Source: Branchinecta lynchi (taxonomy: Eukaryota; Arthropoda; Branchiopoda; Anostraca; Branchinectidae). Taken from it: 64,000 nt of DNA. Position 1 is the stretch's first letter. Each line of letters starts with the position of its first letter. The DNA is taken from NCBI GenBank assembly GCA_023053575.1, contig JAKZAP010000005.1, positions 1,798,001 to 1,862,000 of the forward strand, given 5' to 3'. Under the pieces are notes generated by a model, which worked only from the letters and a program-made list of their open reading frames with translations, did no database searches and was not told the DNA's origin. Shown in pieces: positions 15,801-55,851 of the stretch. A program made the translations under genes and the position numbers.

Positions 15801-18800
15801 TTGATCAAGACTTCTAACCTGTTTCTCAATAGCTACTTGTACAACCTGCTAGTCGATCCGACAATTGCTTCCACGTGCCCATCAGTTCTTATTTTCTGCA
15901 ATAAGCAAGATCTGGCTGCAGCCAAGGGACAGCAGCTACTAAAAACTACGCTGGAGAAAGAGATGTAAGTTATTAAAAAAAAATTTACTTGTATAATATA
16001 CCCTATTCTGTCTATTTACGAACAACCGGTTAAAGTTAAGTACTCACAGATACCCAAGGCCGTATCCAGGGGGGGGGGGGTAGGGGGTTGACCCCCCCCC
16101 CCCGCCCGAAACCTACAAAAGTCATAATTTTACAGGCTTTTCCCTCTTATATTTATTCCAGCAATGTTTTCTACGGATACGTCAGCTAAGATTCTTCATA
16201 AGCGATATTTCGGCCCTTCTTGGCAAGGGTCCTCGTCAGGCTTCCAATCCTCTTGTTCAACTTCGGGGAAAGAAACAAACCTGTAATAAATAACTGAAGC
16301 TTCTACCGACTATAAATATCTTATTAAAGTAAATTATCTTCAAATACTACTACAATGAAAAAACTAGTCCTGAGATTTAATTTTTGACACCGACGCTGTT
16401 TTTGCTGCACGATTGGGGCGATGACAGGAAAGGGTTTTTTCTGCATTTTGATCAACTTCGGTTTTTCTATTAATAAGGGGCTGAAAACTTAAATATTATA
16501 ATATTTATCCCTTTTCTCCTTTTCCCTCTGATCTGTGTCTTTCTTGTCCGATCCGCAGGCAACCCCCCCCCCCCCCCGAAATACTTTCCTGGATACGCGC
16601 CTGCAGATACCATAGAACCCCGATTCTTGTACCGTTATCTAGGAAGTTTTGCTTTCCGGATGTGGGGGCGTAAGACGTATTCTCGCCGTACAACATCCTT
16701 ATTGTTTGCAAGTGCAATTTAAGGTAAAATTTAAGGTTCGCTGAGGTCTCCTCCGGGAATCAAAGGGAATGGCGAGAATAGAGGAAGTCACTCCACGCGG
16801 ACTCCGCGTACGGAAAACAGAGAGAACACCGGGACTGCTTGCAAAGTGGATTTTGTTAAACAAAAAATTATGCAGTTGATGAAATTAGTCTTGTTCCAGT
16901 TTATTTTTGGTTTTCTTTATTCTGACTGTTTTAATTAATTTTTCATGCACTACAAAAGCAAAAATTGATTCCCCTCCGAATCTGAAAGGGAGTCCTTTTT
17001 AATAATACAACTGCAGTAAAAAAAAAAAAGTGCCAAGAAGGGCCGAAATATCGCTGATGAAAAATCATAGCTGACGTATCCGTTGTAAACATTGTTAGAA
17101 TAAAAAGGCTTTCGCCTCTTTTGATGATGGTGATGATAATCGGAGCATTCCCCGTCCGTGGGGACTCGCGAGAATACGGGGAGTGAGCCCCCGGGACAAA
17201 CAAAAACGCAGGGAGTCCTCGGGGAACGACGAGAATAAGCTGATAGTCATATATGCGGAGAATGCGGGTGTGGGACCGTTGGCTTCGAATGCGAGCCGTT
17301 TCCTGCACAATGTATTCACTATGCGCCACTGCTTTACTGTTTACCTCCTTGAACTTTATTGGGGGACATTTTGGGGAGTAGACGTTATCCAGACAATCCC
17401 TTGAGAAGTGATTACCTAGACCGTTTTAGCTAGACTTGTAGCGAAAACAGGGAAACAATTTACATGACCGGTTCCTGGTGGAAAAACTTCTCAGAGACAA
17501 CCGTCGACAGCGTGATACACATCGAAGTTAGGAAAACACGGCAAGTGAGAAAATCAGCGTGGTTTTGTTAAAGGGGTTAGATATTTTTTAGATATTTAAT
17601 GCATAAAAGCCAACAAGGGCCATCGCACCACAACAACAAAGAAAAAAAAAGATATAACAACAATAACACTGTGTCAATATCTAAATTTACAGGGATATAC
17701 AATTTTCCCTGTGTACTAACCCTATCCGGAGGAACCTTCCAAATAGTTGAATGTACCGTACGAAATTTGGGTCCCCGGGTTTAGAAATATATGGAGTGAT
17801 TATGGAAGTAGGTTGCATTAGTATTATAGGTAAGACAGGTCCTTTAATATAATTCTACCCTATCAATCTTCTCCCTTAGTCCCTGTATCTCTCTCTGCAT
17901 CCACATGGCATACACCTCTGGCATGCATCCTCATACAGTGCCGTAACATGACCTAAAATAATGTTGAAATTTCGGATTTGCTTCGGCTTCGCTGTTGGCG
18001 CAAGTTATCACGATGCTCGGATGTCGCGCAAAATGCCTTCGCACTCAGGTATTTCCCTGAGAGAGAGAGAGAGATCGGTATATTTAGAAACCATAGCATA
18101 AAAAACAAGAGCTACGAGCTCATATGGCACTTGTACGAGTAGGCTGTACAAGAAAGTAGATGAGAACGTCACAGAATACACCCGCCATCCAAAAATGCGG
18201 TTAGGAAATAGAAATAGGATATTTAGTTTCACTCATTTCTGAGCAGCTCCTGCATCGTCTCGATTGTCTGTAGCAAATGCATATGACCGTTCAAACTTTC
18301 ATCCCAATAAATCCATTTGTTTGATCCCGAGACGTGCTACACGATTTCCGGTACTCACTCTATTTCCACCTACCGTGGCCGAATCTGGTTCGGAATAAAA
18401 AAAAAAATCGACCACCTAAAGCATCTTCGTTTATACCATCTATCAAGTTTCACTCGAATCTGAGCATTTTTGGAAAGTTCCGGTACCCCCCCCCCCCCTT
18501 CCACCAACATTGTCGGAGCCGGTTCGGGCCCAATCTCTTAATTCCCTGTTGCTGTCCATCAAGTTTGACTGAAATTGGAGCATAGCCTATCTGCAAGTTT
18601 CCAGTACCCCCCCCCCTACCTTGGCCGAATCCGGCCCGGACGCCAAATAACAAATCTAGGCCGCATAAACTCGGCACTGTCGAATTGCATCTCATTCGGT
18701 CCATCCGTTTGGTTTTTGTGCATGTCAAAAGTCCACCCACCCCCAATTCCCCTAATCGTGGTCGCATATGGTTCGGACGCATATTTTACATGTCGAGGCC

Positions 18801-21800
18801 ATCAATTCGTATCACCCATGAAGTTTCACTCGAATCAGACCACTCGTTCGCAATTTATAGAAGTCAATTTCCATATTTCTCTTCTCTTGCTCCCCTAAAA
18901 TGCTCGGATCTAGGAACGGAAGTTTCCGGGGGTATGTTGTGTCAGGTTCTTAAGTCAAGATAATTCGGGTCGCTAGTATGCCTGCAAAGTTTCGTTGTCG
19001 TTTTACATCTGGAACTATTCTAACTCACGACTACCGGAATTCCAGGAAACCCCCTCCAACTCCCCCCACAGAGCCCCGAAACCATCTGGCTCCGTCAATT
19101 TCATCTAGGCCTAATGCTTGTTCCATCCATTAAGTTTCGTCCCAGTCCCTCTGCTTTTAGAGTTTCTTGAGTTTTCCACCCCCCCCCCATCCCCACAGGC
19201 ATCGGGCCCGACCCGGACGTGACACTGAACGTCCGAGGCGATAGCTCATCAGACAAGTTTCATTCAAATCCGATCACCCGTTCAAAAGTTATGCACGCCA
19301 CTAGATTCCGGATTCCCCATCCACCCACTCCCCCCACGATGGTCGGGTCGGGGAAACGGCTGTTCTCAAGTCAATCTGTTCGGATCCCTGACAGACCTGC
19401 CAAGTTTCATCGCCCTAGGACATCAGGAAATATGCCGAACTCGCGGGATCGCTAGAAATCCGGACCCCCACCCCAACTCCCCCACAGTGCCCTGATCCGG
19501 ACCGGTTATGTCAATGACGTGTCTAGGACATGTGCTTGTTTTTCCCACCAAGTTTCATCCCGATCCCTCCACTTTAAGCGTTTCTCAAAATTTCCGGTTC
19601 CCTCCTCCAACTCCCCCCCAGTGTCATCGGATCCGGCCCGGATTTAAAGTGAGATGTCTGAGACACAAGGTCATCCTAAATATCAATTTTCATCAAGATC
19701 CGATCACCCGTTCGCAAGCTAAAAATACCTCAAATTTTGGCTTCACCCTTCCTCCACCCCCCCCCCAGATGGTCGAATCGGGGAATTGACTATTTCCTAT
19801 TTAATCTGGTCGGGTCCCAGACATGCCTGTCAATTTCCATCGTCCCAGCACATCAGGAAGCACGGAACTCGCGGGATCACTACAAATTCGGACTTCTCCC
19901 CCCCCCCCAACTCCCCCAAAGTGAGCGGATCCGTTCCGGTTATATCAGTCACGTATCTAGAACTTTTGCTTGTACTTTCCACCAAGTTTCATCCGGATCC
20001 CTCCACTCTAAGTGTTTTCCAAGATTTCCGGTTTTCCCCTCCAACTCCCCCCAGTGTCACCGGATCCGGTCTGAATTTAAAATGGAGGGTCTGAGACACG
20101 AAGTCCTTCCATATATCAAGTTTCATTAAGATCCGATCACCCGTTCGTAACCTAAAAATATCTCATTTTTCCTATTTTTTCCGGATTCCCCCTCCCTCCA
20201 CTCCCCTCCAGATGGTCGGATCGAGGAAGCGATAATTTCTAATTTAATCTGGTCCAGTTCCTGATATGCCTGCCAAGTTTCATCGTCCTAGCTTATCTGG
20301 AAGTGCCCGAACTAGCAAAACCGGGACCGACAGACCGACTGACGGACAGAAATTACAATCGCTATATGGCACTTGAGTAAGCTCAAGTGCCATAAAAATC
20401 AGTTTCTTACAAATTATAAATAACAAACACATACTACGATTCAGCATTGAAAACCGAAGTAAACAAGACCAAAGGTGTCGATGGGATCCCAAAAATCTAA
20501 GATTTGAGACAGACAATCGGGTCTTGTCTTCGCCAGTTCCAGTCTTTGTCAGGCTAATGATCAGAGAAAACCAAGTTCAGATATACCTCTATAGGCCATA
20601 TCTATTTTGATGATACTGACCGAGACTTCCTGCTTTACTTCTGCCAAGTTTCGGGTTTAGCCCGAAAGTCCAGCAAAAAAAGAAAATTCAGAAACAAATC
20701 CAGCGTATCCCCTTATCCCTTTAAAGAACATCTAATCAACTTTGAATAAAAGTTTGACTTAAAAAAAAAAATCCGGTTACAACCGGATTCCGGACTAATT
20801 ATATGTCCGGGTAAAAAATTATTGTCATGTACAGACTCAGCCTCTCTTCTTACCCCTTAATCTGTCATCTAATCGAACTTTTGCTTTTAACAGATTTTCC
20901 GGTTTTGGCCGGATTCCGGGCGAACTAGTTGTCCGGCGAGAAAATGGTTTTCACCATCGTATTCAACATATTGTTTTACCACTCAATCGAACATTTAATC
21001 AACTTCAAATGAAACTTTTACTTTTAACCAACTTTCCGGTTTCCACCGGATTCTGGACGAACTACTTGTTCGGCGAGAAAAATGGTCTTTTTACCTCTAA
21101 ATCAATCGCTTAATCAACTTCAAATAAATCTTCTACTTTTAACCGTTTTTTCAGGTTTTTGCCCGATTCCGGACTAACTACTTGTTCGGCGAGAAAACTG
21201 TTTTCACTATCGTGCTCACCATGCCTTCTTACCCCACAATCGACTATCACATTAGCTGTTTAAAAATATGTTGTTTGTCCCTTAATTTGAACCCCCACCC
21301 CTAAATGTAGAGCTACATAGCCCATCTACGAACTTCACCTTACCCTTGACCCAGTGAATCCTCACACCAAGTTTCATCAAAATACCTCATTCCCTTCGAG
21401 AGTTATCGTGCTCACAGACAGACGGACATTTTTGCGATGTCATAGGTATCCCTCCACTTACGTTTTGGGATCCCAAAAAGGGCACAAACGAGTTCCCATA
21501 ACGACTAGTGCGGACTTTATAGGGTAGAAGTTTATTTTGCAATCGAGTTCGATTATTGGGAGGGGCTGTTTTCGGTAGAAGGTGCGTCGTATTGGCTAGG
21601 ATAGATTTACCAAACTGCAAAATCAGGTATTTAAGCCGGACTTCAGCCCTGTGACTTTTTCTCTGGGCAAACCATCTCAGGGCAGCCCCCCCCCCCCCCA
21701 CCGAAACCTATGTGCGCTAGCTTAATATATATTTTTCCCCGCAGGAACCTTCTAAGGGAAAATCGAAGCAAATTGTTGGACAGTTCTGGAGCCTCGAACA

Positions 21801-21976: not shown

Positions 21977-22263
21977 GAGTGTCAAATTTGAAAAAATCCT
22001 GTTGATTTGTATAATTGGTGTTTCGGAAAGTGAAATAAGAAGTTTCTTTCTGTCATTCTTTTTTTACTAATATAAAATATTTTTTTGTGGAATAACCGAA
22101 ACTGCTGGATCTTAGCTACTCCAAGGCCCACTGTTCGGTAGCCGGCTCTCAAAAAGGAAATTGAAAATAAGAGGTATTCAGCTTATCAGCGTTTAGCTCA
22201 TCACACGCCTCTACCGGACCTTTTTCCCACTGTCATGCACTGGATACCACAGCAGTCTATGAG
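21977..22263 (+). other. SRPRB 3' UTR and downstream flank
   Basis: AT-rich sequence after the stop. No exact AATAAA is seen; AATATAAAATAT (22069-22080) could hold a variant polyadenylation signal. The end of the transcript cannot be placed. Confidence 0.35.
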
Positions 22264-22520
22264 CGTGTTCCATCCTATTACCGTAGTTACTACGCATGAC
22301 GTCACGAATTCTGTTTTTTTGCCGTCAAGGCTGGAACGATTTTTCTATTTTCCAGCAGGATCTCACGCCAGGGGCGAATCCGACCAATCACGTTACAGAG
22401 ATGCGTAGTTACTACGCTCCCGAGCATGGTAAGCAAATAGTAACTGGTTGGAACGGTCAGCGTAGTAACTTTTCGTGAGGATGGAACGGAAATAGTAACT
22501 AATAGTAACTATTGTCCAGC
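22264..22520. mobile_element. MITE with GCGTGTTCCATCC ends, copy 1 (right end lost)
   Basis: Matches 54728-55028 over most of its length (TACCGTAGTTACTACGCATG, CAGCAGGATCTCACGCC, AACTAATAGTAACTATTG). The right terminal repeat is missing. Confidence 0.65.
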
Positions 22521-23386: not shown

Positions 23387-25846
23387 TTTTTATGGCACTT
23401 GCCCTTCGGCCAAGTGCCATATAGCGATCGCAATTTCTGTCCGTCCGTCGGTCTGTCGGTCTGTCCAGGTTTTGCTAGTTCGGGCACTTCCAGATAAGCT
23501 AGGACGATAAAACTTGGCAAGCGTATCAGGGACCCCAAATGATTAAGTTGGAAATAGTCACTTCCCCGATCCGAGCACCGTGGGGGGAGTGGAGGAAGGG
23601 GGAATCCGGAATCTTGAGGTATTTTTAACTTTTGAACGGGTGATCGGATCTCGATGAAACTTGATATTTGGAACGAACTCATGCCTCAGACGACTCACTT
23701 AAAATCCGGACCGGATCCGGTGACTTTTGGGGGGAGCTGGAGGGGGCAACCGGAAATCTTGGGAAACGCTATGAGTGGAGGGATCGAGATGAAACTTGGT
23801 GGGAAGACACCTAGCAAACACTAGATACATCATTGACATAACCGAGCCGATTCGGGCACTGTGGGGGGAGTGGAGGGAGGGGGAATCCGGAACCTTGAGG
23901 TATTTATAACTTTTGAACAGGTGATCGGATCTCGATGGAACTTGATATTTGGAAAGACCTCATGCCTCAGACGACGTACTTAAAATCCGGACCGGATCCG
24001 GTGACTTTTGGGGGGAGCTGGAGGGGGCAACCGGAAATCTTGGGAAACGCTATGAGTGGAGGGATCGAGATGAAACTTGGTGGGAAGACACCTAGCAAAC
24101 ACTAGATACATCATTGACATAACCGAGCCGATTCGGGTACTGTGGGGGGGGAGTGGAGGGAGGGGGAATCCGGAATCTTGAGGTATTTATAACTTTTGAA
24201 CGGGTGATCGGATCTCGATGAAACTTGATATTTGGAACGACCTCATGCCTCAGACGACCCACTTAAAATCCGGACCGGATCCGGTGACTTTTGGGGGGAG
24301 CTGGAGGGGGCAACCGGAAATCTTGGGAAACGCTATGAGTGGAGAGATCGAGATGAAACTTGGTGGGAATACACCTAGCAAACACTAGATACATCATTGA
24401 CATAACCGAGCCGATTCGGGCACTGTGGGGGGAGTGGAGGGAGGGGGAATCCGGAACCTTGAGGTATTTATAACTTTTGAACGGGTGATCGGATGTCGAT
24501 GGAACTTGATATTTGGAAAGACCTCATGCCTCAAACGACGTACTTAAAATCCGGACCGGATCCGGTGACTTTTGGGGGGAGCTGGAGGGGGCAACCGGAA
24601 ATCTTGGGAAACGCTATGAGTGGAGGGATCGAGATGAAACTTGGTGGGAAGACACCTAGCAAACACTAGATACATCATTGACATAACCGAGCCGATTCGG
24701 GTACTGTGGGGGGGGGGGGAGTGGAGGGAGGGGGAATCCGGAATCTTGAGGTATTTATAACTTTTTAACGGGTGATCGGATCTCGATGGAACTTGATATT
24801 TGGAAAGACCTCATGCCTCAGACGACCCACTTAAAATCCGGACCGGATCCGGTGACTTTTGGGGGGAGCTGGAGGAGGTAACCGGAAATCTTGGGAAACG
24901 CTATGAGTGGAGGGGTCGGGATGAAACTTGGTGGGAAGACACCTAGTAAACACTAGATACATCATTGACATGACCGAGCCGATTCGGGCACTGTCGGGGG
25001 AGTGGAGGGAGGGGAATCCGGAATCTTGAGGTATTTATAACTTTTTAACGGGTGACCGGATCTCGATGAAAATTGATAATTGGAACGACCTCATGCCTCA
25101 GACGACCCACTTAAAATCCGGACCGGATCCGGTGACTTTTTGGGGAGCTGGAGTGGTTAACCGGAAATCTCGGGAAACGCTATGAGTGGAGGGATCGAGA
25201 TGAAACTTGGTGGGAAGATACATCATTGACATAACCGAGCCAATTCGGGCACTGTGGGGGGAGTGGAGGGAGGGGGAATCCGGAATCTTGAGGTATTTAT
25301 AACTTTTGAACGGGTGATCGGATCTCGATGGAACTTGATATTTGGAAAGGCCTCATGCCTCAGACGACCCACTTCAAATCCGGACCGGATCCGGTGACTT
25401 TTTGGGGAGCTGGAGGGGTTAACCGGAAATCTCGGGAAACGCTATGAGTGGAGGGATCGAGATGAAACTTGGTGGGAAGACACCTAGCAAACACTAGATA
25501 CATCATTGACATGACCGAGCCGATTCGGGCACTCTTGGGGGAGTGGAGGGAGGGGGAATCCGGAATCTTGAGGTATTTATAACTTTTGAACGGGTGACCG
25601 GATCTCGATGAAACTTGATATTTGGAAAGACCTCATGCCTCAGACGACCCACTTAAAATCCGGACCGGATCCGGTGAATTTTGGGGGGAGCTGGAGGGGA
25701 GAACCGGAAATATTGGAAAATGCTATGGGTGGAGGGATCGAGATGAAACTTGGTGGGAAGACACCTAGCAAACACTAGACATATCATTGACATAACCGAG
25801 CCGTGCCTACTCGTAACAAGTGCCATATGAGCTCGTAGCTCTTGTT
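23387..25846 (+). mobile_element. HelA, best copy, with 281-bp tandem array
   Basis: Complete head (TTTTTATGGCACTTG, hairpin with CAAGTGCC, CTGTCCGTCCG) and tail (GAGCTCGTAGCTC, CTTGTT). About eight tandem units: GCCGATTCGGG or its equivalent recurs at 23846, 24127, 24410, 24691, 24978, 25239, 25519 and 25800, giving spacings of 281, 283, 281, 287, 261, 280 and 281. Each unit is two related ~140-bp halves, both with GATGAAACTTG and a GGGGGGAG tract. Units are nearly identical, so homogenised recently. No protein. Structure recalls non-autonomous Helentron-type elements. Confidence 0.8.
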
Positions 25847-27500: not shown

Positions 27501-27552
27501 GGTGAGGGGTTTCTGACTTTTCTGAGTTTGTTCACCTATTTTGTTTCCGGTG

Positions 27553-31384: not shown

Positions 31385-31490
31385 AGTGGCGCGTGCCGCG
31401 GTGCCGTGTCGGTGCCGCGGTGCCGAGCCGGTGCCGTGCCGGTGCCGAGCCGGTGCCGAGCCGGTGCCGCGGTGCCAAGCCGGTGCAGCG
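31385..31490. repeat. GGTGCC minisatellite (hAT-K left)
   Basis: GGTGCCGAGCC/GGTGCCGTGCC units of about 11 bases with CCGCGG joints. The non-multiple-of-three unit keeps several frames open, giving false Arg/Ala-rich proteins. Confidence 0.85.
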
Positions 31491-34400
31491 GTTTTTTTTA
31501 CTTCAAATTACAGTATTGTGATAAAGCACGATTTCTGATGTACATGTAAACAAATTTCATCAGATATTGGCCAAGAATGAAGTCGGCAATGTGTGTTGAA
31601 TACAAGAGCTAGCAGCTCATATGGTACTTGCAAGGCTGGGTCAGAGGATGAAATTTAGGAATTTGTAAATTCTTGGGTTTCTTGTGTTTAATTATAAGCC
31701 ATACCCTTGAAATAAGAATGATTGTGGGCCCTTGGAAATCAAGAGAATGATCTGGTGAAAAGTATTTTATTTTTGCACTTTAAGGGCACTAGAAATTCAT
31801 GTGAAAGCAAAACCCTTTAGGCAAAAGTGACTATGGGCTCATGATGGGGATCACGTAGTTGTATATTTTGCTCAAAACTAATGCAACCTATAATACTAAT
31901 GCAACCTACTTCCGTAATCATTACATATATTTCTAAACCCGGAGACCCACGTTTCGTGCGGTACATTCTAACCCCTCTAACAAAACCTCGCTGATTTTCT
32001 CACTTGCCGTGTTTTGCTACCTTCGATGTGTATCACGCTGTTGACGGTTCGAGACGGTTGTCTGCGAGAATTTTTTCCATCAGGAAAATCGGTTATGCAA
32101 ATTGTTTCCCTGTTTCGCTAGAAGTCAACGGGTCTCGGAAAAGGCTTAAAACAGCCAAAACAGTTAGTTATTTATTGAAAGCACAGCATAGTTAAAGTAT
32201 TCAAATACTTTAAAATACTGTAAGTTGAAGAGTGATTAGTGCGAGGGGTCCTTTAAGGGAGCTGGAAATTCATTTTGAAGCAAAACCCTTGTTTCACAAA
32301 TAATCATGGGCTCATGAGGAGCATGAAAATATATGTTTTGCTCCAAAGTATTTTCTATACTTTGTGGTTATGATGAGTACTTTAAGGAATGTGGTTGGCT
32401 CTATAAAAGAATTTATGAACCAATCTTTTCCTTCCTTGACTACCTACTTAGGCTAACTGGTACATATATTTAGCCACAGCAAGTGCATGAAAATGGCAAA
32501 GTTCGAAGCACGAACGTTCAAATAAGCATACCTCTATTGCACTCCCAGAGTGTCTGATGGGGAAATTGACTTTTTCCAAGTTAAATATGCCTGCCAAGTA
32601 TCATTCTTAGCACACTCTACAAATATGAAAAAAAGATTGGTCGCCACCAGGGGGGCACTGGTCTTAAATTCCAGGGTATTGGGCTGGGTGGGGGTGGGTC
32701 CTTTGGTGCTCCAAAAGGTACTTTTCATACCAAGGTGGGGTGATCCAAAATATTATGTGTATTATTATTTTCATACCTATTTTGGGGGTGGGGTGTCAAA
32801 TTTCACTGAAAAACAAGAATTTCTTCCAAAAAAAAAACAATTTCATACCAACATTTTCCCAACATTTTCGTAACAAAATTAAATTTAACCAAACTGATCG
32901 GGTTTATTGCAAAAAAATGAAAGACTTTTTCAAATAGTGTTTGAAAACAATTTGTTACCACTAACACAACACATAAACAATGTATAACCTGAACTAGCTT
33001 ATCATAACAATGAACAAGGCCTTAAAATACGACTAGTTTCACCTGGATCTCCCAGTTTTAGAACTGAGAACAGCATAGTGCGATGATTCAAGATTCAAGA
33101 CGAGATCAAAGTCAAGGGCCGTCCAAGTAGAGAAAGCAGCAGAAAGAGAAATGATATTTCCGTCTACCACCGAGTTCTGTTAAGTATTTTTCAGGTCACA
33201 TAGATTTCTTTACTGAAAGAACTGAATTAGACTTTAGACACTCTTATAGTAAAACTATTTCCCAAAGGAAACATTCAAGTAATCACAAATTTGTGGCACG
33301 TTCTAATGGGTTGTTGTGACTCCCGGCTCTTTTATAAGACTTGTCTTTCATAGGCCTGGTTGCATAGTCTTGGGATGAGATCTTCACAAAAATAAACTGG
33401 CCCATTGCAGTATCGAAGCAGAAAAACCACAAACATATTGCAGATAAGGTTGATACATGAATAAGTCGGTGATCGAAAATCCTTCGCACAAGTAGCTTAC
33501 CACTTTCTGATCGTTATGCACATAATTCTGATCTTCAAAAACTGTCTTTCTAGGACAAACTAGAGCTACCCAAAGTGGCACAAGTGTAACAGGGCTAGAA
33601 GAACCATGTAATGTTAATTTCAGTCCAATTCGATGCTATCTGAGACCACAGTTGCCGACGATCCGAAATAGGTAACGTTCTGAAAGTGGTTCGCTACCTC
33701 TAGTTTTTTCAAATCACCAAAACGCACTTTATAATTAAAGGAAACTAACACCCAGCGAACACCCTATCAATTATGATTTGTAGACTGGTCACCTTTAAAG
33801 CAAAAAAGCATCACTACTTCTTCTTCGTTTTCACAACAACACAATGCAACGCCAAGAAAAGTTGGGAAATGAGTATCTTTCCTGCTGTTCCATTATTTTT
33901 TCATCACAGTATATGCATCAATTTCTTTCTGGGAAAAAAAAACTTTTGGTGGGCAATCGTGCTCACTATGTTTCTGCAGATAATGCTCCTTCAAGCCATA
34001 CCTCCAAAAGGTTCGGAATAAGGGTCGGCACCATTTCTGTTTTTGGCTAAAACAGAAACGGTAAAAAACGGCAAATAAAAAACGGAACAGAAACAGAAAC
34101 GGTGATAAAAAAAAAGGAAAACCGATTCTGTTTTTCCTTTTTTTTTTTCGGAAAAACAGAAACGGACCGTTTTTACAAAAAAAACGGCCGTTTTAACAGG
34201 TATTTCTGTTTTTTTTTCCTACTTCCTTGGGTTCATAAGATAACAGTAAGGCGACCATTTGGAACGGTAAGGCGGCTGTTGGAAAGTGAATAGCGTGAGG
34301 AGGGGCAGCGTGACAGGAGAAGGTTGTGAGAGAAGGTCGAGTATAATTGTGTAAGGTAAAAAAAAAGGACTCTGCAACTGTCTAGTAAACTAAGCCCTTT

Positions 34401-41696: not shown

Positions 41697-42072
41697 CACT
41701 GTCAGAAGTTTCATAACAGATTGCGCATAACACTTTCAAGAATAACACCTTTTCACTTAGAAATAAAGTGTTATGACCAATTAAGTTTATACTATTTCGT
41801 GCCTAGACAACACCTTCAATAGGTAAAAATACTACACTGTCAGAAGTTACATAACGACAACAGAAGGATGCGCGGTTTCAACAGATAACACTTTGGGATG
41901 TTATCTGTTATGTTTCTTTCGTTCCCGTTAGTCTTTTTACCAATTGAAGGTGTTGTTGGAGATCCAGGCATGAAATAGTGTAAACTTAATTGGTCATAGC
42001 ACTTTATTCCTAAGTGAAAAGGTGATATTCTTGAAATGTTATCCGCTATCTGTTATGAAATTTCTGACAGTG
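41697..42072. mobile_element. TA-flanked MITE with CACTGTCAGAA ends
   Basis: Ends CACTGTCAGAAGTTTCATAA (left) and a complement with one change (right), each bordered by TA (41695-41696, 42073-42074). A third internal copy of the end lies at 41836. The arms are complementary over much of their length (AACTTAATTGGTCATA against its complement), so the 376-bp element folds back. Mariner-type MITE by target, no transposase. Confidence 0.75.
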
Positions 42073-42312
42073 TAGTAACCTACAGAATTCCGGACGTCCC
42101 TGATCAACGAAATGTCATGTCTTGGACAGAATGGCAGGCAGTGAAGCCCCCCCCCCCCCCAACCCCTCGCAACTTATCTCCTAATAAGTTTTTTACTTGA
42201 CCGTGCGCCTTCTAGTGAGACAACAGTAAACTAAGTAGACAGTCCTTCAGCCCAAGCTGACTGCGAATCATATTTGACGATGTAAAACGGATAAGTCAGC
42301 TACATTTTATTC

Positions 42313-42356
42313 GAGCTATATTTCGGCCCTTTTTAGCAAGGGTCCTCTTCAGGCTC
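42313..42356 (-). ncRNA. Hammerhead-like motif (helix I GAGC/GCTC)
   Basis: Minus strand: GAGC, CTGAAGA, helix II GG-A-CCCTT with loop GCTAAA and AAGGGCC, GAAA, TATA, GCTC. All core bases fit; the predicted cleavage triplet would be AUA. Loop II differs from the other copies (GCTAAA rather than GCCAAG). Confidence 0.65.
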
Positions 42357-42667
42357 AAGCTGGAAAATGAACTTGTGAAAAACAATTAAAGATTCTTCCT
42401 TAAATATCTGATTTTATGAACTTCTCTGAAAATTGGTTGGAGTTAAAGCTGGTGCTGTGATTTCGTTCTGGACACTACTGCTGTTTTTGCTGTTCGACTG
42501 GGTCGTCGAAAGGGTAGAGATTCTTCTGCATTTTGATTTTGGAGTCACACAATTTGAGTTCCGTATTGTGGTTATAGATAGTCCTTCAGCCCAAGCTGAC
42601 TGCGAATCATATTTGACGATGCAAAATATTATTTTTTCACAAATTGGTTTTCCAGCTTGAGCGGCTT

Positions 42668-42711
42668 GAGCTTGAAGAGGACCCTTGCCAAGAAGGGCCG
42701 AAATATAGCTC
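42668..42711 (+). ncRNA. Hammerhead-like motif, core C to T
   Basis: GAGC, then TTGAAGA instead of CTGANGA, intact helix II, GAAA, TATA, GCTC. The first core C is changed, which should abolish or weaken self-cleavage. Confidence 0.6.
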
Positions 42712-43100
42712 GAATAAAATGTAACTAAGTAGTGTCACCATTGTGTGCCATTTTTGTTTTGCTGAATGTTCAACATGCCCAAAATTACGAGTTGGTGCAG
42801 AGACCGCATCAACACACTCCTAAACGAAAGATTAATTGTGTTGCGGAGCAACACTGGTTTTGTCGGGTTTTCCTTTATTTTTTCCTAGTTTTATGTTCAG
42901 TGCTAGAAGTCTAACCTCCGTGGTTTTCACGAATAATTTGACCCCCAGGCCGGATTGATAAATCTGATAATATTATATTTTGGAAAGCTTCGTAGCACTC
43001 TTGCCTTTGACCAAAAATAAGGTATTTTGAATATTCTTTGAGCCCAAGCTGACTTTGAAACATTTATTCCAGCAATGTTTTCAACGGATACATCAGCTAA

Positions 43101-43163
43101 GATTCTTCATAAGCGATATTTCGGCCCTTCTTGGCAAGGGTCCTCGTCAGGCTTTCAGTCCTC
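43101..43163 (-). ncRNA. Hammerhead-like motif (AAGC/GCTT)
   Basis: Core at 43111-43154 on the minus strand: AAGC, CTGACGA, intact helix II with GCCAAG loop, GAAA, TATC, GCTT. Core bases complete. Confidence 0.65.
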
Positions 43164-43290
43164 TTGTTCAACTTCGGGGAAAGAAACATACCTGTAATAA
43201 ATAACTGAAGCTTCTACCGACTATAAATATCTTATTAAAATATCTTATTATATTTATTCAATCAATGTTTACAACGGATACGTCAGCTCT

Positions 43291-43345
43291 GATTTTTCAT
43301 CAGCGATATTTCGGCCCTTCTTGGCAAGGGTCCTCGTCAGGATTA
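43291..43345 (-). ncRNA. Hammerhead-like motif with lost helix I strand
   Basis: Core CTGACGA, helix II and GAAA TATC GCTG are present. The sequence before the core is TGTAATC rather than GACAGC, so the CAGC strand that should pair with GCTG has been deleted. Confidence 0.55.
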
Positions 43346-43379
43346 CAGGTTTGTTTCCTTCCCCGAAGTTGAACAAGAA

Positions 43380-43439
43380 GATTGACAGCCTGACGAGGAC
43401 CCTTGCCAAGAAGGGCCGAAATATCGCTGATGAAAAATC
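43380..43439 (+). ncRNA. Hammerhead-like motif (CAGC/GCTG)
   Basis: Outer helix I GATT (43380-43383) with AATC (43436-43439), inner helix I CAGC (43386-43389) with GCTG (43426-43429), core CTGACGA, intact helix II, GAAA, TATC. The C-G outer pair of inner helix I differs from both other types, a third compensatory combination. Confidence 0.68.
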
Positions 43440-43637
43440 ACAGCTGACGTATCCGTTGTAAACATTGATTGAATAAATGTTTCAAAGTCAGCTTGGGCTC
43501 AAAGAATATTTATCTTATTATAGTCTACCGACTATAAATATCTTATTAAAATATCTTATTTTAATAAGATATTTATAGTCGGTAGAAGCTTCAGTTATTT
43601 ATTACAGGTATGTTTCTTTCCCCGAAGTTGAACAAGA

Positions 43638-43700
43638 GGACTGAAAGCCTGACGAGGACCCTTGCCAAGAAGGGCCGAAATATCGCTTATGAAGAATCTT
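43638..43700 (+). ncRNA. Hammerhead-like motif (AAGC/GCTT)
   Basis: AAGC 43645-43648, CTGACGA 43649-43655, GAAA 43677-43680, TATC, GCTT 43685-43688. The outer GATT is GACT here, weakening that part of helix I. Confidence 0.65.
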
Positions 43701-43894
43701 AGCTGATGTATCCGTTGAAAACATTGCTGGTATAAGGTATTTTGCTTGTCTTCGACCCACAGCTTACAGTGTGTGAAGTGAAGTGACATGCCTACGCAGT
43801 CTATACAAGAAAGGATTGTCTGAAGTTACGCAGCCAAGCTCCCTTTTCTTCGAACCGTCTATCGTCTTTCGAGTAGAAAGCTCGGTTCTAAATG

Positions 43895-44450
43895 GTCACT
43901 GTCACTAGTCCCGAACGTCAGTTCGCACAAACGTCATTTGGCCCGACAGTTCTCACTCAAACGTTCTCAAGACTCAAACGTCAGTTCATTCACACGTCAC
44001 TTCAGCCACACGTCAATTCGCGTCAGTTCCTTCACGCGTCAATTCGCCCACACGTCAGTTCGTTCCCCGTCAGTTGCACCACCGCCAGTTGACGAAGTTG
44101 ACAAAAACGTCACTTGACACAAACGTCAGTTACCACAAATGCCAGTTCAGCTGCAAAATTCGTCACAGAATCCGAAGCACTGACGGGTTTTCCCTAGACA
44201 GCGAATAAAGTGTCAACGCGTAACGGGGGCTCACTTTCCGCTCGCCTCTATATAATCTTTTCGTAAAAACAAATTTTGATTGCCAAAGTTTGGACCTAGT
44301 GGCGTCTGTTTCTACTGACGTTTGTGCCAACTGACATTTGTGTTAACTGACGGATTTTCATCGGTGAACTGACGTTTGGGCTAACAATCGGAGTTTAGGA
44401 TTGGGTGAACTGACCTGTGGACGAACTGACGTGTGGAAGAAATGATGTAA
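43895..44450. repeat. Inverted degenerate array of CGTCAGTT motifs
   Basis: From 43895 to about 44150 the phrase ACGTCAGTTC recurs roughly every 15-20 bases with variable spacers such as GCACAAA, GCCCACA and ATTCACA. From about 44315 to 44450 the complement GAACTGACGT recurs. The middle ~165 bases lack it. The whole is a spaced foldback of short motifs, with no coding frame worth trusting. Confidence 0.7.
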
Positions 44451-44459
44451 GCGAATTAA

Positions 44460-45560: not shown

Positions 45561-45607
45561 ATACAGGACCGCGTGACCTGCGTGCATCGCGGAAACGGTC
45601 ATGGGTC

Positions 45608-45676: not shown

Positions 45677-45889
45677 TTTTGAACTTAGTTCGTAAACCAC
45701 TATAATGGTCACGAACAAAGAGGCGAAAGGAACAGTGATCCCGCCGAAGACAAATGTATCTAAGCACTTCCCATCCCCATGTCACGGGATTAGATAGTAG
45801 ATGGAATTTTACACGAGGGACTTGTCCTGTGACAAATAAACCAGCTGATTTGTCACGGTAAAGTCACTTGAGTAGTATTCCATCTACAT

Positions 45890-47315: not shown

Positions 47316-47505
47316 CAGGCCCATATCCAGTAATTTTTTTTTTTTTTTGGGGGGGGGGGTGCCTTTCGGGGGGGAGGGGGAGGCCTGCGGATCGCACAAA
47401 AAAGTCCAAAAAGACAGAGATTAGAGGGAAAAGCCTATAAAAATGAATATTTTTGTATGTTTCGGTGGGGGTTTCAAGCCCCCCCCCCCCCTGGATACGG
47501 CTTTG
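47316..47505. mobile_element. hAT-C MITE with perfect target duplication
   Basis: Begins CAGGCCCATATCCAG, ends CTGGATACGGCTTTG, and is flanked by the perfect 8-bp repeat CCGGGAAA (47308-47315, 47506-47513). Contains T, G and C homopolymers and TATAAAAATGAATATTTTTG. Confidence 0.88.
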
Positions 47506-47519
47506 CCGGGAAAACACAG

Positions 47520-49050: not shown

Positions 49051-49179
49051 GGAAAATTGACGGTAGCGTAGAATTTCGCTCTCTCGTTTGATCAATCAGT
49101 GTCGACAGCATCAGTTCACTAGTGATACTCATCTCTGCTTCTCTGTTCGACCAATCGGGGTCATTATTCGTGATCGCTT

Positions 49180-49330
49180 CATCAAGCTCATTGGGACTGG
49201 TTAGTCTGGAATATTATAAGAGTTGAGGTCAGGGTGAGTTCTATTCTTTTAACAGCAAAGTGAGTTTCTTGTGTTGACAGCTTGACGGAAGCTAAGGAGT
49301 AGAACGCGTCGTTAACAAGGTGAGATCATA
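49180..49330 (+). promoter_or_regulatory. Possible promoter and first non-coding exon
   Basis: CCAATCGGGG at about 49171, a TATA-like ATTATAAGAG at 49214-49223, and an exon-like segment ending AACAAG|GTGAGA with the donor at 49319. If real, it could be the 5' UTR exon of the SAND gene 7 kb downstream on the same strand. This rests on motif spacing only. Confidence 0.25.
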
Positions 49331-49654
49331 TCGGATCGAGATCTCTGCCGAGGTTCACTCAGAATACACATTGCCTTGTATTTCGGCATAGCATCCTTTC
49401 TCGAAAATCGGCAGAAGAAATCACTTTTCTTTGCAGGGCTAAGATTTAAAAAAAAAAAATTAATGTTAGTTGCGTTTTCGCAGATACTATGGTATCTGAT
49501 ACCACGGTCAAAAGTCGTATTTGCAGTTACTGAGCATCTGACCCTACAAAATTTGTAGCCTGCGTAGTTGTATGATAGTTGTACGAAAAAGTTGCATGTA
49601 TTGATATGTAATGGCGAGGGGTTGCTCACTCTCCGCCACCGGTGTACACCTCGA

Positions 49655-49925
49655 CACGGCACCGACACGGCACCGGCACGGCACCGGCACGGCACCGCGG
49701 CACCGGCACGGCACCGGCACGGCACCGCGGCACCGGCACGGCACCGGCACGGCACCGCGGCACCGGAACGGCACCGCGGCACCGGCACGGCAAAGGCACG
49801 GCAACGGCGCAACACCGCGGCACCAGCTCGGCACCGCACGGCACCGGCACGGCACCGGCACGGCACCGCACGGCACCGGCACGGCACCGCACGGCACCGG
49901 CACGGCACCGCACGGCACCGGCGAC
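49655..49925. repeat. GGCACC minisatellite (hAT-K copy 2, left)
   Basis: About 24 units of GGCACCGGCAC with CCGCGG joints. Long frames open in several registers on both strands are a by-product of the 11-base unit, not genes. Confidence 0.9.
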
Positions 49926-50806
49926 AATTTTTCCGGCCACGGACAAATTTTCTGCAGATTACTCTTCGCCATCTGGTATCTGGTATCTGGCGCCCAATAA
50001 CGAAGGTACTTGAATGAAAGAATTATTGAAAACATGCAACCGAAGAAGAAGCTGAACTAGATATGAGGAGATGCTGTTGACCAAATGCGCAAAGTGGTCA
50101 ACCATGGTTTGGTACTGGTGCTTGGCGATACTTGGATTTTTCGATATATCGATATTTTCACTTTCGATATTAGATAATCGATATATCGATATTTCCGCTT
50201 TCGATATTCAACAATCGATACATCGATATTTTCACTTTCGATATTCGATAATCGATATATCGATATTGATATTTGCTTACCATGCTTCGTTTCGCCAAAA
50301 TCTAAGAACGAAATTTTCATTAAATAGCATCTTGGATCATTTCAAACTCAGAATAAATGAGAAATGAATTAGGGAAAACATATTGTCCAATTTCGGATAT
50401 ATAAGTGTAGGTTAGTTCGGATTATTTACAATAATTACGATGAACAAATATCGTTTTGGATAGCGATACTTACGTTTCGATATCGATATTTGGTGCGATA
50501 TATCGATCGATCGATATCCGATATATCGCATACTGGATCATCTCGAACTCCGGATAAATAAGAAAGGAATTGCGGAATACACATTGCTCCAATTTCGTAT
50601 ATATAAGTGTGGGTTATGTTGGATTAATTGCAATCTTTACGAATGAACAAATATCGTTATCGATATCGATATTTACTTTCGATATCGATATTTTGTCCGA
50701 TACATGGATATATCGTTATCGGTATCGAATATCGCCCAAAACTTGAGTCAGCTTCAGTATATTTTGCTTCTGGTGAAGGTAATTCAGTGGCGACCAATCT
50801 TTTTTT

Positions 50807-52036
50807 GGGATCCCAAAACGTAAGTAGAGGGATACCTATGACATCGCAAAAGTTGTCCGTCTGTCCGTCCGTCCGTCCGTCTGTAAGCACGATAACTCTC
50901 GAAGGGAATGAGATATTTTGATGAAACTTGGTGTGAGGGTTCGTTGGGTCGTCGGACCAGTCAAGTTCGTAGATGGGCTTTGTAGCTCTACATTTAGGGG
51001 TGGGGGAGGGGATTCAAATTAAGGGACAAACAAAATGTTTTGAAACAGCTAATGTGATAGTCGATTATGGGGTAAGAAGACATGCTGAACACGATGTTGA
51101 AAACCATTTTGTCATCGGACAAGTAGTCCGAGAGCCCGGAATCCGGCCAAAACCGGAAAGTTTGTTGAAAGTAAAAGTTTTATTTGAAGTTGATTAGATG
51201 TTCGATTTAGGGGTAGGAAGACATGCTGAAGACGATGGTGAAAATTATTTTCTCGACGGACAAGTATTTCGCCCGGAATCCGGCCCAAACCGGAAAGTTT
51301 GTTGAAAGTAAAAGTTTTATTTGAAATTGATTAGATGTTCGATTTAGGGGTAGGAAGACATGCTGAAGACGATGGTGAAAACTATTTTCTCGACGGACAA
51401 GTATTTCGCCCGGAATCCGGCCCAAACCGGAAAGTTTGTTGAAAGTAAAAGTTTTATTTGAAGTTGATTAGATGTTCGATTTAGAGGTAGGAAGACATGC
51501 TGAAGACGATGGTGAAAACTATTTTCTCGACGGACAAGTATTTCGACCGGAATCCTGCCCAAACCGGAAGTTTGTCAAAATTAAAAGTTTTATTTGGAGT
51601 TGATTAGATGTTCGATTTAGGGCAAGAAGACATGCTGAACACTTATGTGAAAACAAGTTTCTACCCGGACATGTATAGTTCGTCCGGAATCCGGCCAAAA
51701 CCGGAAAACTGTTGGAAGTCAAAGTTTTATTTCTAGTTGATTAGATAAGCGATTTAGGGATAAGAAGAGATTCTGAGTCCCTGTATGACAATCATATTTT
51801 ACCCGGACATATAGTTCGACCGGAATCCGGCTGGAATCGGAAAATTTGTTATAAGCTAAATTTCTATTTGAAGTTGATTAGATGTTCATTACTGGGGAAA
51901 GAAGATACCCTGATTTCGTGTTTGAGCTTTCTTTTTTCGCCGGACAAGTAGTTCTGGAGTTCGGCTAAGACAAGACCCTGTTGTCTGGATCAGATATTGA
52001 ATTTTTGGGATCCCATCGAAACCTTTGGTCTTGTTT
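50807..52036 (+). mobile_element. HelB, best copy
   Basis: Head GGGATCCCAAAACGTAAG, a CCGT run, CGATAACTCTCGAAGGG, GAGATATTTTGATGAAACTTGG. Then six to seven units of about 137 bases (GTTCGATTTAGG near 51200, 51338, 51474, 51611). Tail GGGATCCCATCGAAACC, TTTGGTCTTGTTT. It lies in a T tract of hAT-K; the same site is empty in copy 1 (32619-32640). No target duplication. No protein. Confidence 0.82.
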
Positions 52037-53177
52037 ATATTTGTAGAGTGTGATAAGAATGATACTTGGCAGGCATATGTAACTTGGAAAAAGTCAATTT
52101 CCCCATCAGACTCTCTGGGAGTGCAATAGAGGTATGCTTATTTGAACGTTCGTGCTTCGAACTTTGCCATTTTCATGCACTTGCTGTGGCTAAATATATG
52201 TACCAGTTAGCCTAAGTAGGTAGTCAAGGAAGGAAAAGATTGGTTCATAAATTCTTTTATAGAGCCAACCACATTCCTTAAAGTACTCATCATAACCACA
52301 AAGTACAGAAAATACTTTGGAGCAAAACATATATTTTCATGATCCCCATGAGCCCATGATTATTTGTGAAACAAGGGTTTTGCTTCAAAATGAATTTCCA
52401 GCTCCCTTAAAGGACCCCTCGCACTAATCACTCTTCAACTTACAGTATTTTAAAGTATTTGAATACTTTAACTATGCTGTGCTTCAATAAATAACCAACT
52501 GTTTTGGCTGTTTTAAGCCTTTTCCGAGACCCGTTGACTTCTAGCGAAACAGGGAAACAATTTGCATAACCGATTTTCCTGATGGAAAAAATTCTCGCAG
52601 ACAACCGTCGCGCAACCGTTTCGAACCGTCGACAGCGTGATACACATCGAAGGTAGCAAAACACGGCAAGTGAGAAAATCAGCGAGGTTTTGTTAGAGGG
52701 GTTAGAATGTACCGCACGAAACGTGGGTCTCCGGGTTTAGAAATATATGTAATGATTACGGAAGTAGGTTGCATTAGTATTATAGGTTGCATTAGTTTGA
52801 GCAAAATATACAACTACATGATCCCCATGAGCCCATAGTCACTTTTGCCTAAAGGGTTTTGCTTTCACATGAATTTCTAGTGCCCTTAAAGTGCAAAAAT
52901 AAAATACTTTTCACCAGATCATTCTCTTGATTTCCAAGGGCCCACAATCATTCTTATTTCAAGGGTATGGCTTATAATTAAACACAAGAAACCCAAGAAT
53001 TTACAAATTCCTAAATTTCATCCTCTGACCCAGCCTTGCAAGTACCATATGAGCTGCTAGCTCTTGTATTCAACACACATTGCCGACTTCATTCTCGGCC
53101 AATATCTGATGAAATTTTTTTACATGTACATCAGAAATCGTGCTTTATCACAATACTGTAATTTGAAGTAAAAAAAC

Positions 53178-53384
53178 CTCGGCACCGGCTTGGCACCGGC
53201 ACGGCACCGGCTCGGCACCGCGGCACCGGCACGGCACCGGCTCGGCACCGGCACGGCACCGGCACGGCACCGGCACGGCACCGCGGCACCGGCACGGCAC
53301 CGGCACGGCACCGCGGCACCGGCTCGGCACCGCGGCACCGGCACGGCACCGCGGCACCGCGGCACCGGCTCGGCACCGCGGCAC
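53178..53384. repeat. GGCACC minisatellite (hAT-K copy 2, right)
   Basis: GGCACCGGCAC and GGCACCGGCTC units with CCGCGG joints, about 207 bases against about 105 in copy 1. Confidence 0.88.
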
Positions 53385-53436
53385 GCGCCACTTGGTGTAC
53401 ATCGTTTTTGGGAGTGAGCAACCCCTCGTGTAATGG

Positions 53437-54210
53437 TACAGAATACTATCATTTAATGTGCCTCAGACTGGTCTAATCTTAAGCAGTAGTACCCAGTAGC
53501 ATCCTGTCTTACTAATAAAAGCATCAGTTCGTACTGCGTGCTACTTTTTCGTACAACTTCGTACTACTATTCTGAGATAAATTTTGCATCGGGGACTACT
53601 TACAGGGGCATCTGATATTCAGATACCACGGTTCCGACCATGGTAACTGACCGTGGTATCTGCGAAATTCATCTCACTTTCATCATCACCAACATAACAG
53701 CCTAGGATTTTGTCAAATTTAGTAGGAAAGAATTTCGGCACTCGTGATGTGAGTAGAGGTAAGTATTTCTTCTAGGATGACTTCTAAAAGCGCGAACTCA
53801 GCAATTGTAGATTTTGCAAGGCAACCGTAGGATCAGATATCACGGTAAGTGCAAAAAACGACTAAACGCAGGTCCAGTTACCGTGGTATCAGATACCATG
53901 GTATCTGCAAAAGTACAACTATTGCAACTCTACGTAACACGAAATTCGGGAGTTTCCTGCGTTGAAGCTAGGATAATCGTCCTCCTCCATTGCCGTGCTA
54001 TGTTGCATGTTTTCTACATTCCAGGCTCGTGGACAAGTTATTGAATGATTTGTTTGTTGCCCGTGATCCGCTGCAGTAGAAAGAAACCCTCGACTTTCCT
54101 TAAAAAAAAACCTTAACATCACGACAAAATGCCTAGAATGAGATAATCTGAAGTGTAGCACTGCAGAAAGTTACATCGCTCATTTGAAGAAGAAACGCGA
54201 AAGTACTGAT
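53437..54210. repeat. Anonymous region with GGTATCTGATACC palindromes
   Basis: ATGGTATCTGATACCACGGT-type phrases and their inverted versions recur at 53625-53660 and 53830-53910, and once at 49487-49506. They look like a small palindrome-rich repeat. No gene. Confidence 0.4.
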
Positions 54211-54214
54211 TACA

Positions 54215-54316
54215 ACAAGACAGAAGGTTTTGATGGGATCCAAGAAACGGAATATTTATTGGACTTCTTGATCCAGACAATCGAGTCTTGTAGATTTCCG
54301 GTCTTTGCCAGACCCC
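54215..54316 (-). mobile_element. HelB terminal fragment
   Basis: Plus strand ACAAGACAGAAGGTTTTGAT then GGGATCC is the complement of a HelB tail. The rest is lost. Confidence 0.55.
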
Positions 54317-54399
54317 GTCAGAATATTAAATATTCTTTGAGCCCATGCTGACTTTGAAACATTTATTCCAGCAATGTTTTCTACGGATACGTCAGCTAA

Positions 54400-54454
54400 G
54401 ATTCTTCATAAGCGATATTTCGGCCCTTCAAGGGTCCTCGTCAGGCTTCCAATC
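54400..54454 (-). ncRNA. Hammerhead-like motif, shortened helix II loop
   Basis: As the AAGC/GCTT type, but five bases of loop II (TTGGC, plus-strand sense) are deleted, leaving a tight CCCTTGAAGGG hairpin. The core is intact. Confidence 0.6.
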
Positions 54455-54526
54455 CTCTTGTTCAACTTCGGGGAAAGAAACAAACTTTATTACAGGTTTG
54501 TTTCTTTCCCCGAAGTTGAACAAGAG

Positions 54527-54586
54527 GATTGGAAGCCTGACGAGGACCCTTGCCAAGAAGGGCCGAAATATCGCTTATGAAGAATC
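54527..54586 (+). ncRNA. Hammerhead-like motif (AAGC/GCTT), intact
   Basis: GATT 54527-54530 with AATC 54583-54586, AAGC 54533-54536 with GCTT 54573-54576, CTGACGA 54537-54543, GAAA 54565-54568, TATC. The cleanest copy of this type. Confidence 0.68.
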
Positions 54587-54727
54587 TTAGCTGACGTACC
54601 CGTAGAAAACATTGCTGGAATAAATGTCAGAATATTACTATTTATCCCTAATAACCGCTAGAAATTATACAAAAAATGATACCGAAAAGAGTTTTTGATA
54701 AATTAAGGCCAAACTGCAAACCCGAAG

Positions 54728-55028
54728 CGTGTTCCATCCTACTTACCGTAGTTACTACGCATGACGTCACGAATTCTGGCTTTTTGCCGTCAAGGCTGGA
54801 ACGATTTTTCTATTTTCCAGCAGGATCTCACGCCAGGGGCGAATCCGACCAATCACGTTCCAGAGATGCGTAGTTACGACGCTTACCACGCTCCCGAGCA
54901 TGGTAAGCAAATAGTAACTATTAGTTACTATTCCGACAAGGTTGGAACGGTCAGCGTAGTAACTTTTCGTGAGGATGGAACGGAAATAGTAACTAATAGT
55001 AACTATTGTTACAAGGGTGGAACACGCT
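54728..55028. mobile_element. MITE with AGCGTGTTCCA ends, copy 2
   Basis: Left end AGCGTGTTCCATCCT and right end AGGGTGGAACACGCT are inverted. CCCGA occurs at both flanks and may be a 5-bp duplication. The interior holds short palindromes (ATAGTAACTATTAGTTACTA). The related copy is at 22264-22520. Confidence 0.65.
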
Positions 55029-55066
55029 CCCGATAAGGATCCAACATATATGCTCACCCCTATATA

Positions 55067-55204
55067 CAGGGCCATATCCAGGGGGGTCTACCCACCCCCA
55101 GCAACGTACAAAAATAATCGTTTTTATAGGCTTTAACCTTCTACTTTCTGGTGCGACCCGCGGGTAGCCCCACCCCCCGAAATAAATTGTTGAATTCGGA
55201 CCTG
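55067..55204. mobile_element. hAT-C MITE, short copy
   Basis: Begins CAGGGCCATATCCAGG and ends AATTCGGACCTG. The flanks CCTATATA and CCTCTATA (55059-55066, 55205-55212) match at 7 of 8. Confidence 0.7.
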
Positions 55205-55523
55205 CCTCTATATATCTCTAATAACAAGAAAATAAACTTCAGAAACGGATTTGCCGTTTGTTCTTATCTTTGATATAAGCCTTTAATCGACTTAGGAATG
55301 AACTTCTTCTTTTATTCAATTTCTACCGCAGACGAAGACCTCATATTTTGCATTGTCGCTTGTCCAGTGACAAACGGTATGACGATGTCTTACAAGTGAA
55401 GACGTGGAAGTTTCATAGTAAACAACAATATAAAAAATAAAATATAAACATAAAAAAAAAATATTAATAAAAAAGAATGTATATTTGATGGTGCAAAACG
55501 GATACGTCAGCTGAATTTTATTG

Positions 55524-55567
55524 GAGCTATATTTCGGCCCTTCTTGGCAAGGGTCCTCTTCAGGCTC
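55524..55567 (-). ncRNA. Hammerhead-like motif (GAGC/GCTC), intact
   Basis: Minus strand: GAGC, CTGAAGA, helix II with GCCAAG loop, GAAA, TATA, GCTC. Core bases complete. Confidence 0.66.
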
Positions 55568-55807
55568 AAAACCGCTCAAGTTGTAAAAACGAACTAGTGG
55601 GGAAGACAAAACTAAAGATTCTAGGATAGCGTTAAGTATTTGACTTCGTATTCCTTCGTGAGACTCAATATAACAAAACATATTAATATTTAAATACTTA
55701 ACTTCGTGAGTCTCAGGAAGGAATTTACGAAGTTAAATACTTAACGCTAGGCTAGAATCTTTAGTTTTGTTTTCCCACAAGTTCATTTTTCCAACTTGAG
55801 CGGTTTT

Positions 55808-55851
55808 GAGCCTGAATAGGACCCTTGCCAAGAAGGGCCGAAATATAGCTC
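55808..55851 (+). ncRNA. Hammerhead-like motif, catalytic G lost
   Basis: GAGC, then CTGAATA: the core G that acts in catalysis in hammerheads is T here. Helix II, GAAA and GCTC are intact. Expected to be inactive. Confidence 0.6.

Follow-up and report, generated by a model that had tools for sequence, protein, structure and literature searches.

Minimal hammerhead ribozymes are already known from the pseudo-long terminal repeats (pLTRs) of Penelope-like elements (PLEs), where the accessible parts of the published accounts describe them as type I ribozymes with a near-absent helix III, present in thousands of copies (PMC7761336, PMC6155905). Here we describe a family of hammerhead-like motifs in the anostracan Branchinecta lynchi, starting from a 64,000-nucleotide stretch of its genome (assembly GCA_023053575.1, contig JAKZAP010000005.1, positions 1,798,001 to 1,862,000 of the forward strand), hereafter the window. 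The sequence of the motif and of its surroundings suggests that it is probably a minimal type I hammerhead in the pLTR of an endonuclease-bearing PLE, still able to cut under some condition. The family resembles the hammerheads of Cervera and de la Pena (2014) and of Lunse, Weinberg and Breaker (2017) in its type I form, near-nil helix III, pLTR location and thousands of copies, a likeness drawn from the partial descriptions at hand. A bulged A in helix II and a particular set of helix I strands are features of the present family, the published minimal hammerheads again being compared by description.

Two individual elements offer closer comparisons. PAc, a Poseidon-type PLE of Anolis carolinensis, is likewise a GIY-YIG element with tandem repeats and a hammerhead at the pLTR–open reading frame (ORF) junction; in PAc, hammerhead cleavage is protein-assisted, two internal reverse transcriptase (RT) start sites set the tail of the insert, both DNA strands are cut and extended, and the main substrate is uncut RNA, features that the B. 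lynchi element appears to share in its two-ended, two-sided inserts and uncut templates (PMC11167929). The two elements differ in their geometry, however: in PAc the cut lies 26 bp inside the ORF and RT starts 111–118 bp into it (PMC11167929), whereas here the predicted cut precedes the ORF by 50 nt, and inserts end close to the start codon or ~34 nt into the ORF. The Penelope elements of Adineta vaga, as far as the accessible text describes them, are alike in having inverted, head-to-head pLTRs, an optional ~31-bp tail in the ORF start, short target duplications and a similar ORF length, but are present in low copy number, against thousands of motif copies here, and are proposed to self-prime on an antisense template, where we tentatively prefer two-sided priming (PMC3846280). 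The present family was not found described in the literature searched on hammerheads in transposons, in which the founding PLE-hammerhead papers figured by citation only. By its sequence it is a new PLE family bearing a known kind of putative ribozyme in a known setting, with a predicted cut before the ORF and a very high copy number.

The earlier note on this DNA, made from the letters of the window, had claimed a dozen or so copies of the motif, and scans of the window recovered all 11 that it listed together with both worn ones. Across the assembly (575.7 Mb scanned, in 216 contigs) the exact motif has 10,405 matches (5,179 + 5,226) and its reversed-pattern control 0, while a 60-mer of the most frequent subfamily, F1, has 9,369 matches at up to 3 mismatches, again with 0 in the control. 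A chance motif was considered and rejected. Most counts below come from an enriched 264-kb sample, made up of the window and 20 loci of 10 kb picked around motif matches on one contig (C1). This sample holds 62 copies at up to 7 mismatches; reversed and complemented controls gave 2 matches in it, both at 9 mismatches. Together with five copies from loci L030, L032 and L033 these make 67 units, which fall into three subfamilies by their 3' flank: F1 (40 units), F2 (19) and F3 (8). The copies and related features of the window are as follows.

15184 to 15218, plus strand: worn copy with 4 mismatches and a 3' flank of F3 type
16205 to 16239, minus strand: hammerhead-like core, F1 type, helix I AAGC/GCTT, in a single arm of a PLE end
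16370 to 16483, minus strand: C-terminal scrap of the PLE ORF (residues 825–862, 84% identical), upstream of core 16205
17031 to 17104, plus strand: 5'-cut arm that begins within the helix II loop and lacks the 5' half of the core
42318 to 42352, minus strand: hammerhead-like core, F2 type, GAGC/GCTC, with A at H17
42452 to 42538, minus strand: C-terminal scrap of a PLE ORF (residues 835–863, 62% identical), upstream of core 42318
42672 to 42706, plus strand: hammerhead-like core, F2 type, carrying a C3-to-T change
43116 to 43150, minus strand: hammerhead-like core, F1 type, AAGC/GCTT, in the outer arm of a nested head-to-head insert
43306 to 43340, minus strand: hammerhead-like core, F1 type, with the 5' helix I strand removed by a junction
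43390 to 43424, plus strand: hammerhead-like core, F1 type, CAGC/GCTG, inner arm
43649 to 43683, plus strand: hammerhead-like core, F1 type, AAGC/GCTT, outer arm
54326 to 54627, no strand assigned: head-to-head PLE insert containing cores 54415 (minus) and 54537 (plus), with flanking repeat GTCAGAATATTA
54415 to 54444, minus strand: hammerhead-like core, F1 type, helix II loop shorter by 5 nt
54537 to 54571, plus strand: hammerhead-like core, F1 type, AAGC/GCTT
55481 to 55931, no strand assigned: head-to-head F2 PLE insert containing cores 55529 (minus) and 55812 (plus); flanking repeat unclear, best 6 nt
55529 to 55563, minus strand: hammerhead-like core, F2 type, GAGC/GCTC, with A at H17
55812 to 55846, plus strand: hammerhead-like core, F2 type, carrying a G8-to-T change

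The changes of C3 in core 42672 and of G8 in core 55812 are of a kind expected to inactivate a hammerhead.

The carrier of the motif was identified from its longer copies. Sequence upstream of the motif was traced to locus L032, which has a 497-amino-acid frame related to PLE proteins, with 436 homologues among the 7,995 candidates scored; the best of these is 43% identical and the best named one, from Artemia franciscana, 41%. When the genome was searched with this frame, 86 matches were scored among 5,893 first-look candidates, and 22 of these matches have an 863-amino-acid frame; in 18 of the 22 this frame is stop-free within the match, suggesting a PLE that was apparently active recently. 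The 863-amino-acid ORF of locus L034 is identical to a PLE protein, P0001, at 302 of 808 positions (37%), in an alignment that covers the RVT_1 (325–520) and GIY-YIG (686–736, below cut-off) regions assigned to P0001 by Pfam. In L034 two copies of the motif share one orientation, with a tandem period of 3,019 nt and 91% identity over 1,182 positions. A Pfam GIY-YIG search of the genome gave 2 matches, one of which, at L030, carries a worn motif copy. Judged by homology, the motif is carried by a PLE with a predicted reverse transcriptase and GIY-YIG endonuclease, and the window copies are 5'-truncated PLE ends that mostly stand head to head. The link to PLEs drawn in the earlier note is thus borne out by the RT/GIY-YIG ORF and the 3,019-nt tandem monomers. 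Its statement that the elements have no visible reverse transcriptase does not hold: near-identical copies elsewhere have the 863-amino-acid ORF directly downstream, and even in the window C-terminal scraps of it adjoin two copies (at 16370–16483 and 42452–42538). A peptide-pattern search of viral contigs matched 48 stretches, none of them a relative; the one DNA match there, L055, has no 5' core half and was read as chance. In L023, a worn sequence resembling a long interspersed nuclear element reverse transcriptase (7400–8216, recognised by eye) lies just upstream of a PLE arm with its core at 8263 on the plus strand.

Read as a type I hammerhead, the motif runs from helix I through CUGANGA, helix II with its bulged A, GAA, A15.1, UA, U16.1 and H17 back into helix I. 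The core CUGANGA...GAAA...UH is complete and H17 is never G (C in 46 of the 67 units, A in 17 and T in 4), in keeping with the minimal type I hammerhead with a near-absent helix III that had been claimed. Between F1 and F2 the 36-nt core differs at 2 positions, N7 and H17. These are the two core positions that are free to vary in hammerheads; were two changes placed at random among 36 positions, exactly this pair would be hit in 1 of 630 cases.

The inner helix I strands are CAGC/GCTG in 27 units, GAGC/GCTC in 15, AAGC/GCTT in 10 and other single combinations in 15. In the window, the flanking four bases pair in 10 of the 11 copies; they had been said to do so in every intact copy, and the exception is core 43306 (AATC/GCTG), whose 5' strand ends at an element junction. 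The outer GATT/AATC pairing is present in F1 and F3 only, F2 pairing its outer helix as CAGCT/AGCTG in the computed F2 fold. Covariation was counted over 62 of the 67 units, leaving aside L030 and four units of other core length, and these reduce to 51 distinct rows. Over these rows, 94.9% of 612 cells are paired; inner helix I is paired in 92.6% of cells and the outer helix in 63.7%, while slid versions of the helix pairing reach at most 51.6%. The percentage paired, the number of cells with changes on both sides and the covariation score all lie above every one of 500 shuffles; the number of pairs with a double change was reached by 1 of the 500 and that of further pair types by 3. The compensatory change that the earlier note proposed for helix I is seen at pair 11–54, whose letters vary (CG in 25 copies, GC in 15, AU in 4, UG in 2) while pairing is kept in 46 of 51, the other 5 being unpaired.

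In L034 the distance from the predicted cut to the ATG that follows it is 50 nt, and the whole core, with at most one mismatch, stands directly before the ORF in 15 of 18 single loci upstream of near-full ORFs; the exceptions are L042 and L048, where truncation reaches into or beyond the core, and L051, which lacks the ORF start. Of two more loci, both head-to-head centres, L035 keeps the core in one arm only, and in L036 an ORF start was located in a single arm, which begins a few nucleotides before the cut. In F2, for which the string was compiled from several copies, the spacing from cut to ORF is 45 nt, and the first ORF codons read MIRSQLGLKEYLS, compared with MFQSQLGLKEYLS in F1. The conserved outer ends of the window palindromes are thus ORF codons.

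Most copies lie close to another. In the enriched sample, 28 neighbour pairs lie within 1 kb, 18 of them head-to-head, 6 tandem (at least 2 of which arise from nesting) and 4 convergent, and 15 of the 62 copies have no neighbour within that distance. Flanking repeats of 8 nt or more (8–13 nt) were found in 12 of 25 head-to-head arm pairs, against 9 of 600 controls. The inserts have two preferred ends about 34 nt apart, one near the start codon and the other ~34 nt inside the ORF: in 18 of the 25 arm pairs one arm ends at +79 to +91 of the unit and the other at +112 to +125, where the unit reference itself stops. The remaining pairs are short–short (4) or long–long (3), some of them being nested inserts mispaired by the pairing rule. 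These inserts agree in anatomy with both the Anolis (PMC11167929) and, in the portion at hand, the A. vaga account (PMC3846280); of the two modes of priming, we tentatively prefer two-sided priming to self-priming.

Taken as a hammerhead that can still cut, the motif would act as follows. In a transcript through tandem monomers the ribozyme would cut after H17, releasing from the preceding monomer an RNA that contains the ORF behind a 50-nt leader. Because helix III consists merely of A-UA-U, a single copy probably cuts poorly, but the AUAU between GAA and H17 is self-complementary, so that pairing of two copies could lengthen helix III. The 2017 study by Lunse et al. reportedly deals, going by its title, with hammerheads that cut as dimers. 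Alternatively, cutting could be aided by the PLE protein, as reported for the Anolis element. Integration would proceed mostly from uncut RNA, with the protein nicking both DNA strands, and reverse transcription beginning internally on both strands would then yield head-to-head inserts. In the computed fold of one head-to-head transcript (L019, 4436–4741) all 36 core bases are paired, 35 of them with the opposite arm; with the core buried in this way, any cutting is to be expected in tandem or single-arm transcripts.

Several results weigh against this reading. Since the covariation counts in helix I track the subfamilies, the independent changes behind them may number as few as two. Covariation in helix II is near nil: the helix is 96.1% paired, and double changes occur at just 2 of the 7 pairs, in a single sequence each. 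When five window stretches were folded alone, four formed helices I and II in the computed structures but one formed helix II only, and the z-scores (–0.58 to –2.23) did not pass –2.3. A computed dimer fold exceeds two monomers in stability, yet it is formed by bases other than AUAU and so lends no support to the AUAU pairing idea. A Pfam search of the 863-amino-acid ORF itself gave no match, although its homologue P0001 carries RVT_1 and the sub-cut-off GIY-YIG. Rfam reported no hammerhead in the whole window at the gathering threshold and none in window positions 42000–44200 at E ≤ 10, and the genome search with RF00163 (Hammerhead_1), in which 72 of 91,239 candidates were scored, peaked at 20.4 bits, short of the cut-off of 34. 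A hammerhead model match even at low threshold, the absence of which the earlier note had counted as a refutation, was thus lacking by Rfam in what was searched. We give this silence little weight because published PLE hammerheads are described, in the parts of the papers available, as lacking helix III (PMC7761336, PMC6155905). Finally, a footprint of cutting at insertion junctions was sought in the 86 arms of the sample and not found.

At and around window positions 43294–43435, Rfam microRNA families gave sub-threshold matches on the palindromes (90 bits at most, the cut-off being 230). The long inverted repeats give rise to these matches, which are likely to prompt false microRNA calls.

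The predicted cut is spanned by 71 of the 86 arms. Arm starts between 0 and 80 number 21, and a single one falls at 33–39, where an even spread predicts ~1.8; this start (L033:3841) lies within a 4-nt GCTC microhomology and is ambiguous, and no BLAST-placed arm end falls at 33–39. The arm end of L025:5478–5559, placed 4 nt past the cut by BLAST and ~1 nt past it by eye, is a possible cut junction. The integrated templates in the sample show no sign of regular cutting. The lack of a junction cluster at the cut is what integration of uncut RNA would lead one to expect, and such integration has been reported in vitro for the Anolis PLE (PMC11167929). Arm starts were also noted in the near-palindromic helix II loop (CTTGCCAAG), at 14, 16, 17 and 20 and, in L042, at ~18; the excess is too small to claim, but the loop, in which arms of L014, L033 and L042 and the arm at window position 17031 begin, may be a preferred joining point.

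The same junctions would suit a ribozyme that descends from a PLE hammerhead but has ceased to cut; in this vestigial reading the hairpin is retained because the PLE protein binds it or recognises its template by it. Arms that mostly run across the cut, junctions that do not cluster there and a 36-nt core, loop included, that is near-invariant between subfamilies beyond the needs of catalysis all speak for it. The core differences between F1 and F2 are confined to N7 and H17, however, and helix I has kept its pairing despite changes of letters, as selection for cleavage would leave them; on balance we think loss of cutting unlikely. A more specific proposal is that the selected job of the ribozyme is to separate coding from copying rather than to shape templates for insertion, a role that this proposal sets aside because the junctions carry no cut-site footprint. 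The cut would free the ORF-bearing RNA, protein-held RNA would stay uncut for two-sided insertion, and AUAU pairing between tandem copies might serve as the switch. This is speculative, and we hold it to be rather doubtful.

It is a good deal less probable that the motif is no hammerhead at all but another conserved hairpin of the PLE, in RNA or DNA, that is unrelated to hammerheads and looks like them. The silence of Rfam and the high conservation throughout would fit such a hairpin, but the core positions are complete, the cut triplets conform to NUH and helix I covaries; the motif also sits in the pLTR of a PLE, where published hammerheads are found (PMC11167929).

A retrozyme, a small element that is not autonomous and multiplies by way of circular RNA, was rejected as very improbable. 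The metazoan non-LTR retrozymes do resemble the present copies in having type I hammerheads in short, repeated, non-coding units, but in the accessible description they form direct tandem repeats of 150–450 bp that are expressed as circles (PMC7229834), whereas here the copies are truncated and mostly inverted PLE ends (18 of the 28 neighbour pairs being head-to-head) whose units run on into the PLE ORF on both sides. A fold-back DNA transposon (a miniature inverted-repeat transposable element) bearing the motif in its inverted repeats would explain palindromic inserts with flanking repeats, but was dismissed as barely credible once the conserved outer ends proved to be the first codons of the PLE ORF, with end lengths that differ in 18 of 25 arm pairs and palindrome centres that vary, by eye, between loci.

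Other repeats share the window with these elements. A 43-nt stretch (CTGATGAAATTT...ATCAGAAATCGTGCTTTAT) adjoins arrays of 11-nt units of CGGCACCG type at 31393–31563 and 53106–53391, and together with this minisatellite it looks like a separate dispersed repeat rather than part of the hammerhead family. A 281-bp unit forms tandem arrays at 12966–13760 (2.9 copies) and 23566–25803 (8 copies), and a degenerate array of 16-base units rich in ACGTCAGTTC (43900–44149) adjoins the nested PLE inserts.

The genome of B. lynchi offers an apparently recently active PLE whose motif copies exceed 10,000 and whose insertion ends can be read; given these properties, the question of whether the ribozyme is used can be put to natural data. 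The insertion ends in the sample give no sign that cut RNA integrates. The head-to-head inserts are consistent with the priming on two strands reported in vitro for the Anolis element.

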